A stretch of DNA of 64,000 bases from NCBI RefSeq assembly GCF_013376475.1, contig NZ_CP045508.1, positions 3,136,001-3,200,000 of the forward strand, read 5' to 3'. Positions within the stretch are counted from its first letter, which is position 1, and each line of letters begins with the position of its first letter. Made by a program: the position numbers and the translations under genes. Positions 13,205 through 41,202 of this stretch are shown here, one piece after another. The notes beneath the pieces are model-generated. The model was given only the letters and a program-made list of their open reading frames with translations, was not told where the DNA came from and ran no database searches. The DNA comes from Desulfolutivibrio sulfoxidireducens. Lineage in GTDB: Bacteria > Desulfobacterota > Desulfovibrionia > Desulfovibrionales > Desulfovibrionaceae.

Positions 13205-13252
13205 GGCGGGGCGTCGCGGCGAAGGCCCTGGCCTTCGCCGCGACGCCCCGCC
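13205..13252. repeat. Perfect 23-bp inverted repeat between symporter and DUF294 genes
   Basis: The arms at 13205-13227 and 13230-13252 are exact reverse complements around a 2-base centre (CT). The hairpin starts 35 bases after the symporter stop, with the DUF294 start 92 bases further on. No T-run follows on the minus strand, so it may be a stabilising 3' hairpin or attenuator that uncouples the two genes rather than a simple intrinsic terminator. Confidence 0.8.
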
Positions 13253-22509: not shown

Positions 22510-25143
22510 TCAACACAAAAGCCGGTGCAAAAGCGCGGCCCTGATCTCCCGGACCTGTTCCGGGTCCTCGATCTTTTTGCCGTCGGCCCCACGCACGTAG
22601 AACACGTCGCGAACGACGTCCCCCATGGTGTCCGCCTTGGCCAGATGCACCTCCAGGCGCAATTCGGCCATGGCGTGGGCGATGTCGTACAAAAGCCCGA
22701 TACGGTCCCTGGCCGCGACCTCAATGAGCGTATACAGGGCCGAGGCCTCGTTCTCCACCCGCACCGACGCCGCGCCCGGACCGCCCCCCGAACGGGTCCC
22801 CCGCCCCGGCCGGCAGGACAGGATCGACTCCCGCTTCCGGGCCAGTCGGTATTCCAGGGACAGCTTCCCCAAAAGGGCGTAGCGCACCGCGCCGCCCACC
22901 CTGGTCCACAACTCCTCGGCATACAGGGCGTCCGGCGGGTCCGACACCCGAAACACGTACACCGAGGTGCCGTCGGCCCACAAAAACACGTCAGCGGACA
23001 GAATGTTCAGGTCATGCAGGGCCAACACGCCGGCCAACACGGCGAAAAGCCCCGGGCTCTCCCCGGCCGCCACCGTGACCTCGTGCCCGGCGCCCCCGGG
23101 CGAGGGCCGGGCGGAAAGCACCGCCGGTCCCCCGGAGCACAGAAGCCGTGCCCGGGGCATGCGCCGGGCGTAATCCCGGGCCTCCTGGCGTAGCCGAACC
23201 ACCAGGGACAGGTGCCGCAGGATGTCCGGCACGGACAACGCGATCAGGTAGCGCGGGGGCATGGCGTCCAGACAGGCCTCGATCTCGGCCCCGGACATGA
23301 TCCCCACAGCCCCGGCCCGCACCTTGTCCCTGGCCCGCAACATCCGCCCGGCGTCGTGCTCGTCGAAAAGGTCGCCCTGGCCGAGCATGCGGGCCGCCTT
23401 GCGAAAAAGCTCCCACACCAGGCCTTCCTTCCAGTCCGTCCAGGCCGATGGTCCCGTGGCCCGGGCGTCGGCGTAGGTCAGAAGCATGAGCATGTTCAGA
23501 CGGTCGAGGGCGCCGGCCCGGGCGGCGCAGGAGGCGATCACGTCGCGGTCCGCAAGGTCGCGACGCCAGGCCGTGTCCGCCAGAGACAGGTGTTCGCGGA
23601 CCAGAAAGGCCACCTCGTCCCGGGTTGCGTCATCCACGCCGAAGCGTTCGAGGGCCTGCCGGGCGATGTCCGCGCCCTTTTCGGCGTGCCCGCCGCCCAG
23701 GCCCTTGCCGATGTCGTGAAAAAGCGCGCCCAGGATCAACCGATCCGGATGGAGCACGCCGCGAAACAGCTCATGGTACCGGTTTTCGGGATCGGCCCCG
23801 GCCTCGGCCAGTCGCCTGACGACCTCCAGGCTGTGCCTGCCCACGGGATGCACATGGTAGAGGTCGAATTTCACCAGATGCGCCACCCGGCCGAATTCCG
23901 GCAGCATGGCCGCGAGAACCCCGGACTCGAAGACGGCCTCGGCGGTCTGTCCCGAGGCGTCGGCGGCCAGGATGCCCACCAGCGACGACAGGGCCGCCCC
24001 ATCGCTTTGAAGCCGCCCCCCATGGGCCTCGGCCAGCCCCCCGATCCTGCGGATGGCCGAAAAGGAGATGGCCGATTCCGTGCGCACGGCCGTGCCGAAA
24101 AGCGGAAAGAGCCTGTCGAAGGCCTGCCCGTCCGAAAGTCCCGGGGCGAAATCCAGCCCGCCCGGTCCGCGGGCGATGCCGTCGCCCACCGGTTCCGGCG
24201 GCCGGTCCGAGATCGCGCCAAGGGCCAGGGCCAGCCCCGGCCACAAGGCCTGGCGCAGGTTTTTCACGGCGGACATGCGCCGCAAAAGCTCGGCCAGAAA
24301 GACCTCCACGCCAAGCGCCCCCTCCCGGTCGGCAAAGCCCAGCCGGGCGGCGATGCGCTCCTGGATATCGAAGGGCAGCTTGTCGGTCTTGCGGCCGGTC
24401 AGCCGATGCAGATGGGAACGCACCAGGAGCAGGAACTCCGAATCCCGGAAAAGGTCCGGCCCCACGCCGGCCCCCAGCGCCCCGCCGCCACCGGCCAGGG
24501 CCGCCAACCGGGACAACCATACAATCTGATGCGCGTCGCGAAGCCCGCCCAGGCCCTCCTTGAGCTGGGGTTCGAGCAGGGCCCCGGCGTCGCCGTGGAC
24601 CTCCCCGCGCCGGACGTTGGCCGCATCCAGCCAGGACGCGAAATCGGCCCGCCTTTCGGGATAGACCTCGACCGCCAGCCGTTCGCACAGGGTCCCGAAC
24701 ACCCTCGCGTCCCCCACCAGATGCCGGGCATCCAGAAACGAGGCCAGCACCTGATGGTCGCTTCGGGCCAGCTCCACGCAGAGGTCCAGGCCGCGCACCC
24801 CGTGCCCCAGTTCCACGCCCAGATCCCACAGCGGGAAAAACAGGAACCGGGCCAACTCCCCGGCCCACTCCGGCGGCTCGCCGGAAAAAACCACCAGCAC
24901 GTCGATGTCCGAAAAAGGGCACAGCTCCCGCCGTCCGTACCCACCCACGGCCACCAGGGAGAAGCCCTTGCCCCCCCTGCCCCCATACTCGGCCAGGCGT
25001 TCTCCGAAATAGCGGTCGGCCAGATCGGACAGGGCCACGACGCACCCGGCCCCCACCCGTCCCGCGTCGAGATCGGCGAAAAGGGCCTCCCGGGAGGCGG
25101 CAAACGCCCTGGCGCTCTGGGGCGGATGGGCGGGAATGGGCAT
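22510..25143 (-). CDS. glnD: Protein-PII uridylyltransferase / uridylyl-removing enzyme
   Basis: GlnD (877 residues) uridylylates PII under nitrogen limitation and removes UMP under excess. The nucleotidyltransferase motif VAVGGYGRRELCPFSDIDVL (about 64-83, Asp79 and Asp81) is near the N-terminus. A central HD domain has HPVGRHSLEVV and LGALFHDIGKGLGGGH, and two ACT domains follow (YVFRVSDPPDALYAEELW; LYTLIEVAARDRIGLLYDIA). The ATG at 25143 has GGAGG 7 bases upstream. It lies downstream of glnB, its substrate, separated by three strong inverted repeats. Confidence 0.95.
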   Translation of the reverse strand: MPIPAHPPQSARAFAASREALFADLDAGRVGAGCVVALSDLADRYFGERLAEYGGRGGKGFSLVAVGGYGRRELCPFSDIDVLVVFSGEPPEWAGELARFLFFPLWDLGVELGHGVRGLDLCVELARSDHQVLASFLDARHLVGDARVFGTLCERLAVEVYPERRADFASWLDAANVRRGEVHGDAGALLEPQLKEGLGGLRDAHQIVWLSRLAALAGGGGALGAGVGPDLFRDSEFLLLVRSHLHRLTGRKTDKLPFDIQERIAARLGFADREGALGVEVFLAELLRRMSAVKNLRQALWPGLALALGAISDRPPEPVGDGIARGPGGLDFAPGLSDGQAFDRLFPLFGTAVRTESAISFSAIRRIGGLAEAHGGRLQSDGAALSSLVGILAADASGQTAEAVFESGVLAAMLPEFGRVAHLVKFDLYHVHPVGRHSLEVVRRLAEAGADPENRYHELFRGVLHPDRLILGALFHDIGKGLGGGHAEKGADIARQALERFGVDDATRDEVAFLVREHLSLADTAWRRDLADRDVIASCAARAGALDRLNMLMLLTYADARATGPSAWTDWKEGLVWELFRKAARMLGQGDLFDEHDAGRMLRARDKVRAGAVGIMSGAEIEACLDAMPPRYLIALSVPDILRHLSLVVRLRQEARDYARRMPRARLLCSGGPAVLSARPSPGGAGHEVTVAAGESPGLFAVLAGVLALHDLNILSADVFLWADGTSVYVFRVSDPPDALYAEELWTRVGGAVRYALLGKLSLEYRLARKRESILSCRPGRGTRSGGGPGAASVRVENEASALYTLIEVAARDRIGLLYDIAHAMAELRLEVHLAKADTMGDVVRDVFYVRGADGKKIEDPEQVREIRAALLHRLLC

Positions 25144-25160
25144 GGTTGGCCTCCGGCGGC

Positions 25161-25200
25161 CGGGGAGGGAACCTTTTTTGAAAAAAAGGTTCCCTCCCCG
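25161..25200. repeat. Perfect 19-bp inverted repeat at the glnD 5' end
   Basis: The arms at 25161-25179 and 25182-25200 are exact reverse complements around 2 bases, each with a run of six A or T next to the centre. It ends 17 bases before the glnD ATG, next to the ribosome site. It could act as a terminator or an mRNA hairpin limiting glnD expression. Similar hairpins with a CCCTCCCCGGACCCC flank are, to my knowledge, common between Desulfovibrio genes. Confidence 0.75.
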
Positions 25201-25271
25201 GACCCCTCTCTCCAAAAAACTTCAACGGCTTCGCCCCGCGGGCGGCGATCCGTGCCGCGCGACCCGGAATC

Positions 25272-25337
25272 GGGCCTCTTTACGCGGTCAGGGGCCTGGG
25301 AGCGCGCTCCCAGGCCCCTGACCGCGTAAAGAGGCCC
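25272..25337. repeat. 66-bp perfect palindrome between glnB and glnD
   Basis: Bases 25272-25304 and 25305-25337 are exact reverse complements, a 33-bp arm with no spacer (centre GGGAGCGCGCTCCC). It lies 46-111 bases downstream of the glnB stop on the same transcript. No T-run follows. It could form a very stable RNA hairpin or a DNA cruciform. Confidence 0.85.
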
Positions 25338-25349
25338 CGTTCGGGGGGT

Positions 25350-25372
25350 CCGGGGGGAATGATTCCCCCCGG
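25350..25372. terminator. Hairpin just after glnB
   Basis: CCGGGGGGAAT and ATTCCCCCCGG form an 11-bp perfect stem around one base, 11 bases after the glnB stop. It is the likely end or processing signal of the amtB-glnB transcript. A nearly identical ATTCCCCCCGGAA sequence recurs inside a gene at 40626. Confidence 0.6.
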
Positions 25373-25382
25373 AATTCCTGTC

Positions 25383-27029
<1,647 letters not shown>

Positions 27030-41163: not shown

Positions 41164-41202
41164 GCCAGAAGTCCCCGGAAAAAAGCTCCGGGGACTTCTG
41201 GC
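41164..41202. terminator. 16-bp perfect hairpin upstream of the first IS
   Basis: GCCAGAAGTCCCCGGA and TCCGGGGACTTCTGGC pair perfectly around a 7-base loop (AAAAAGC). It lies 158 bases after the methyltransferase stop and may end its transcript or that of the gene remnant on the other strand. The rest of 41007-41317 holds no recognisable gene besides that remnant. Confidence 0.6.

Follow-up and report, generated by a model that had tools for sequence, protein, structure and literature searches.

We found that the three inverted repeats filling the gap between glnB and glnD, here named H1, H3 and H4, belong to an element that recurs across the genome on a common plan: the inverted unit H1, then a spacer in which the long palindrome H3 lies, and last the direct unit H4, with copies that adjoin the 3' ends of genes. 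The arms of H3 change in pairs from copy to copy, and the gap itself varies among relatives. We put at roughly six in ten the probability that H1, H3 and H4 together make up a single copy of a non-coding, REP-like element dispersed in the genome, whose palindrome arms are matched by quasipalindrome template switching, and that they form no dedicated glnB/glnD switch; our confidence is slightly reduced because about half of the copies are without one part of the full plan. Most likely, the element resembles REP sequences while failing the tested features of RAYT-linked REPINs and of the GTAG and CGTC families, and its palindrome stays self-complementary by template switching in DNA. The striking palindrome, once supposed to be a nitrogen switch, is in this way recast as one of many copies of a repeat.

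Hairpins in the glnB-glnD gap

The window, i.e., the whole 64-kb stretch of DNA analysed here, carries glnB and glnD on the minus strand, separated by 239 bp (from the end of glnB at 25383 to the start of glnD at 25143). Its features around the gap are as follows.

22510-25143, minus strand: glnD coding sequence, the downstream gene, an open frame with its ATG at 25143-25141; the copy in the congener G002 starts alike
25150-25159, no strand assigned: outer edge of the H1 unit, CCTCCGGCGG; on the glnD strand it includes GGAGG, placed 6 nt ahead of the glnD ATG as a Shine-Dalgarno sequence would be
25160-25201, no strand assigned: H1 hairpin, the inverted unit, with 20-bp perfect arms and loop GA
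25200-25206, no strand assigned: H1 foot GGACCCC, by sequence complementary to the H4 foot
25207-25271, no strand assigned: spacer between H1 and H3, with a short GGCTTCGCC motif at 25227-25235
25272-25337, no strand assigned: H3, a 66-bp perfect palindrome that varies from copy to copy
25345-25351, plus strand: H4 foot GGGGTCC, by sequence
25349-25373, no strand assigned: H4 hairpin, with 12-bp arms and one central base; its pattern occurs at 74 places in the genome
25383-25721, minus strand: glnB coding sequence, the upstream gene, 112 aa by translation

The preliminary description had reported three inverted repeats in this gap, and they are real: direct reading of the sequence, a repeat finder and an exhaustive scan of the window gave concordant coordinates. 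H3 lies exactly where it had been placed, with 33-bp perfect arms and no spacer, while the other two stems proved slightly longer than described: H1 has 20 bp (25160-25179 and 25182-25201, with a loop of 2 nt) instead of 19 bp at 25161-25200, and H4 has 12 bp (25349-25360 and 25362-25373, around one central base) instead of 11 bp at 25350-25372. The three hairpins exceed chance, because the window contains just six hairpins with perfect arms of at least 11 bp and a loop of at most 10 nt, and three of the six are H1, H3 and H4. Compared with dinucleotide shuffles, folding gave z = -11.0 for RNA of the transcript strand and z = -12.5 for DNA of the plus strand. Transcribed as part of the glnB-glnD mRNA, the element would form three hairpins of very high stability.

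Strong hairpins located behind genes could act as intrinsic transcription terminators, a reading that we regard as extremely improbable here. No T-run follows any stem on the transcript side by reading, in agreement with the preliminary description, which had also called such perfect arms unusual as terminators; the element does not look like an intrinsic terminator. A simple terminator scan of 24900-25800 returned a single site, which lies within glnD and not in the gap, and the loci L246 (G002) and L151 (relative G007) have a separate hairpin with a T-run beside a unit. The intrinsic terminator was accordingly rejected, as no GC-rich stem followed by a T-run was found. A known Rfam RNA was also rejected: the same 24900-25800 interval gave 41 weak Rfam matches, none of which reached the gathering score of its own family.

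A dispersed element, its gene context and its relatives

The genome itself (G000, 4,155,851 bp) was searched with 25140-25400, which gave 88 matches; the left and right parts recur across the genome, often paired in the same order, and the middle palindrome matched itself alone. The plan common to the copies inspected consists of the edge GCCTCCGGCGG, H1, the foot GGACCCC, a spacer, H3, and the foot GGGGTCC with H4, often followed by a further hairpin unit, named H5 here. A pattern search for H4 allowing up to three mismatches listed 78 hits (0 in the reversed-pattern control). Once four hits that read a palindromic site a second time are discounted, 74 places remain, and the 71 that lie in the retrieved stretches or the window were analysed. 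An H1-type inverted unit with its foot stands upstream of H4 at 43 of the 71 under a loose rule, an H3 hairpin at 52, and both at 36, so that the full H1-H3-H4 plan is present in about half of the copies and the remainder are partial. The preliminary description had proposed a genome search for the palindrome and its motifs and had raised a recombination or selfish element as one option; the search supports the selfish reading, with H1 and H4 dispersed, H3 part of the same repeated unit, and a selfish-looking palindromic element whose H4 occupies 74 places.

Gene context was assigned with a simple codon-usage caller, and six copies were dropped (three called inside a gene and three without a called neighbor), leaving 65. 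Between tandem genes, 25 copies stand in one orientation and 25 in the other, a further 15 lie between convergent genes, and none lies between divergent genes, compared with 8 divergent among the 25 window gaps of at least 100 bp (Fisher p 1.4e-5). The edge, which reads GGAGG on the transcript strand, was recognized in 22 of 71 copies. In 7 of the 10 copies oriented as at glnD (6 of 9 without glnD itself), an ATG follows 4-8 nt after the edge, the frame having been checked for the glnD ATG alone; no ATG stands within 14 nt of the edge in the 12 edge copies of other contexts. At glnD, the edge is thus placed as a Shine-Dalgarno sequence and may serve in ribosome binding, which suggests a way in which such elements can become established in operons at little cost. 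If the element affects expression, this would be a side effect of its insertion and not the work of a dedicated glnB/glnD switch.

Of 58 other genomes searched, 11 contain H4 (up to two mismatches): ten belong to the same family, and one (G034), with a single match, belongs to another. The loci in G007, G043, G047 and G018 have related plans with other hairpin sequences, a long H3 is missing from several of them, and paired changes between genera are seen in H4 as well. When named genomes were searched with part of GlnD, one relative came up, a Desulfovibrionaceae MAG, the contig of which stops 97 bp before the match. Draft contigs also end near elements, as if palindromes broke the assembly (L075; G001 contigs such as C145, C143, C92 and C25), and several G001 matches lie no more than about 100 bp from where a contig ends.

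Adjacent glnB and glnD were available from 17 relatives (16 plus G018). Element motifs occur in the glnB-glnD gap of three, each arranged differently: G002, whose GlnD shares 77% amino acid identity with that of the window over 871 aligned positions, has a palindrome, H4 and H5 and no H1, and its arms are perfect yet differ at many pairs from those of G000; G007 has a unit in the opposite orientation without H3; and G018 has a lone unit. The other 14 gaps are without any element motif. Among them, the gap of G011 carries a plain intrinsic terminator and those of G006 and G023 other stems of 13 and 8 bp, and the rest have perfect stems of at most 6 bp.

These comparisons bear on the proposal, made in the preliminary description, that the hairpins set the ratio of PII to its modifying enzyme. 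The hairpins do stand between two functionally linked genes, and the orthologous site in G002 has a palindrome with matched two-sided changes. However, the same kind of element occurs at 74 places and adjoins many other genes, and 14 of 17 relatives are without its motifs while the remaining three are arranged differently. The preliminary description had taken a plain short terminator in relatives as a sign against its reading; such a terminator was found in G011. The palindrome of G002, at the same place and with matched arm changes, lends the proposal partial support. Since the element stands at many sites and the gap varies among relatives, the device is not specific to PII control, and a dedicated switch for the GlnB/GlnD ratio at this locus appears very improbable.

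Comparison of loci between G000 and G002 further illustrated how copies differ. At L017/L132, the flanks, H1 and H4 align closely, in contrast to the central part of either H3 arm; L015/L059 has H1, whereas G002 is missing the H3-H4 part there. Within G000, L037 and L039, 25 kb from each other, carry almost identical elements, and the left flank of L037 runs on without the element in G002. The two flanks of L039 match G002 places about 2 Mb apart (L244 and L246), a rearrangement breakpoint at or near the element. L023 (G000:C1:747846 and 749410) contains two similar elements in the same orientation, 1.5 kb apart, the H3 arms of which differ by three two-sided and two G-U changes. At L040 (G000:C1:554679), part of the spacer and of an H3 arm is tandem-duplicated upstream of the hairpin. 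The copies would have spread by past mobilization or conversion.

Relation to known repeat families

In the available text of Bertels and Rainey 2011 (PMC3116915), REP doublets or REPINs are described as inverted palindromic units around a less conserved spacer, present in many extragenic copies and able to form hairpins, and the present element is alike in these respects. Short palindromes in many extragenic copies with inverted pairing are found here (74 H4 places, H1-type units at 43 of 71, and 65 of 71 between genes). Unlike the REPINs described in that text, it has other unit sequences, its spacer holds a copy-specific near-perfect palindrome, and no RAYT flanked by units was found. Whether it is a REPIN proper, i.e., a REP doublet moved by a REP-associated tyrosine transposase (RAYT), was weighed against these features. 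The inverted doublet of short, GC-rich, extragenic palindromes and one recently copied element speak for such an origin; on the other side, PF01797 in G000 matches one tnpA alone, which lies between IS-like ends of its own and is read in two frames, and five of eight element-bearing relatives are without a PF01797 match. PF01797 searches of G000 and the eight element-bearing relatives found no mobilizing enzyme and no RAYT flanked by units, and a scan of seven loci, a set without L054 and L183 (both of which overlap loci in it), placed no H4 unit beside a PF01797 match. We therefore rejected a RAYT-linked REPIN on the flanking-unit feature and consider movement by a RAYT improbable, if less so than the switch or the terminator. 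The tnpA of G000 is IS200/IS605-like (L053, about 1200-1800, G000:C1:3512609-3512966), and its halves lie in different reading frames.

The GTAG and CGTC REP superfamilies are also similar in the accessible text of Di Nocera and others 2013 (PMC3733652): they are dispersed extragenic stem-loops, often dimers, some with structured spacers, and the CGTC repeats are likewise without a dedicated transposase. These superfamilies were rejected, as the H4 copies have the foot GGGGTCC and no terminal GTAG or CGTC (nor the variants TGTC and CCTC), and the H4 arms have 12 bp versus the 8-9 bp given in that text, in which Desulfovibrio goes unmentioned. Hairpin elements of organelles, as portrayed in the available part of PMC2800124, are alike in being dispersed, hairpin-forming, possibly mobile and without known function; they lie in organelle DNA and have other sequences, and the resemblance is one of form, with no relation shown. 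Literature on Desulfovibrio repeats, covered at abstract level and with few subscription journals, yielded no description of this repeat, and we do not claim its absence from print.

Pairing and change in the central palindrome

H3 was defined by arms of at least 15 bp, with matches to H1 excluded; by this rule, no H3 was assigned at 19 of 71 H4 places in G000 and at 12 of 40 in G002, where the remaining 28 places (from 39 fetched loci) have one. In the 52 copies of G000, the arms span 17-33 bp, and 45 of the 52 hairpins end 3-8 nt before H4. All 52 arm sequences are distinct, the closest two being one base apart, and pairing is nonetheless nearly complete: 1192 of 1214 pairs are Watson-Crick, with 10 G-U, 5 A-C and 7 other, and in G002 the proportion is 617 of 626. 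The hairpin finder favors perfect arms and the first G-U count (10 of 1214) depends on its scoring, so pairing was re-tested with G-U scored as a full pair. This rerun gave 85 hairpins among 111 H4 places, with G-U at 3.5% over whole arms, and 48 of the 72 G-U pairs fell in the five outermost pairs; the inner helix has 24 G-U and 16 A-C among 1662 pairs.

Changes were then placed on a minimum spanning (nearest-neighbor) tree of hairpins at least 75% alike, in which 40 of the 80 hairpins of G000 and G002 were joined by 31 edges. The tree contains 93 two-sided changes that keep Watson-Crick pairing, 9 one-sided and 2 other, and the G-U-tolerant tree contains 145 two-sided versus 30 other changes. 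RNase P RNA served as the control, taken from 25 genomes of the family out of 29 searched, with partial matches dropped; it showed 307 two-sided Watson-Crick versus 248 other changes (129 to or from G-U), although its structure is computed and uncurated and spans genera, so that its other changes may be inflated. In the 80 hairpins from two congeneric genomes, set beside this control, two-sided changes far outnumber one-sided ones.

These patterns are relevant to how the arms stay matched. In the mechanism that we favor, the sequence of H3 would largely drift while the arms remain matched, one arm templating the other during DNA replication; such quasipalindrome template switching would copy a mutation across the arms and would sometimes invert the loop. 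Arm homogenization and spacer inversion are reported marks of template switching in the available text of Abraham and Hazkani-Covo 2021 (PMC8604942), and together with the palindromes of Nematomorpha (PMC6649704, likewise in the text available) that system offers a close likeness, with arms complement-identical and loops invertible; those cases are yeast genes and mitochondrial genes, whereas here there are many copies of a dispersed bacterial repeat. One hallmark, the dominance of two-sided changes, is present in the H3 arms. Loop inversion would fit two kindred pairs with TTT versus AAA loops, namely L037/L039, alike at 22 of 23 arm pairs, and L078 (524372)/L081, alike at 20 of 23, but loop usage is skewed overall (GAA 15 versus TTC 2). 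The H3 5' arm is also T-rich in G000 (T-A 213, A-T 46). Given this base composition and the asymmetry of the loops, the hairpin is not neutral in sequence over its whole length.

Alternatively, the hairpins may act in mRNA, by 3'-end protection, as an RNase III site or in operon polarity, with selection on RNA keeping the helix by compensatory mutations. The copies adjoin gene 3' ends, with 0 of 65 between divergent genes, and RNA folding is very stable (z -11.0), both of which would suit such a role, as would the loops skewed to GAA and the T-rich 5' arm. Divergence agrees as well: at 11 orthologous sites, 201 of 235 H3 arm positions are alike, gaps left out, and 279 of 408 four-fold sites of glnD are alike, so the arms diverge no faster than four-fold sites. 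Faster-than-neutral evolution of H3 is accordingly unsupported. However, the inner helix contains G-U and A-C at 24 and 16 of 1662 pairs, versus 208 and 24 of 2585 cells in RNase P RNA; two-sided changes dominate even on the shortest edges of the tree (four of the five with a single changed pair); and the copies take both orientations to genes, 25 and 25 between tandem genes. We thus hold an RNA function to be unlikely, though clearly the strongest of the rival explanations. The paired changes and the TTT/AAA loops probably fit copying of arm onto arm in DNA better than selection on RNA, and template switching is accordingly our candidate, read from the sequences, for the cause of arm matching.

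A further, more tentative possibility is that H3 is a self-rewriting site, in which the outer units are kept and arm-onto-arm copying gives each copy its own changing self-complementary tag, without a RAYT; we consider this somewhat less probable than its opposite. If it is true, the copies of the element would record template-switch mutation in a bacterium naturally and in replicate. With the 80 hairpins at hand, the old question of whether perfect palindromes persist by selection on RNA or by arm copying in DNA becomes directly testable by resequencing close strains. A bias toward one replication strand was not clear, with 17 plus and 20 minus copies below 2.2 Mb and 19 and 15 above, taking dnaA at 307 and assuming the terminus opposite, with noisy skew.

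Long hairpins exist outside the repeat too: at window 13205-13252, a perfect hairpin stands by itself, with arms of 23 bp, a 2-nt loop and, by reading, neither H1 nor H4 units, and window 41164-41202 has perfect 16-bp arms and a 7-nt loop, with no T-run behind it.
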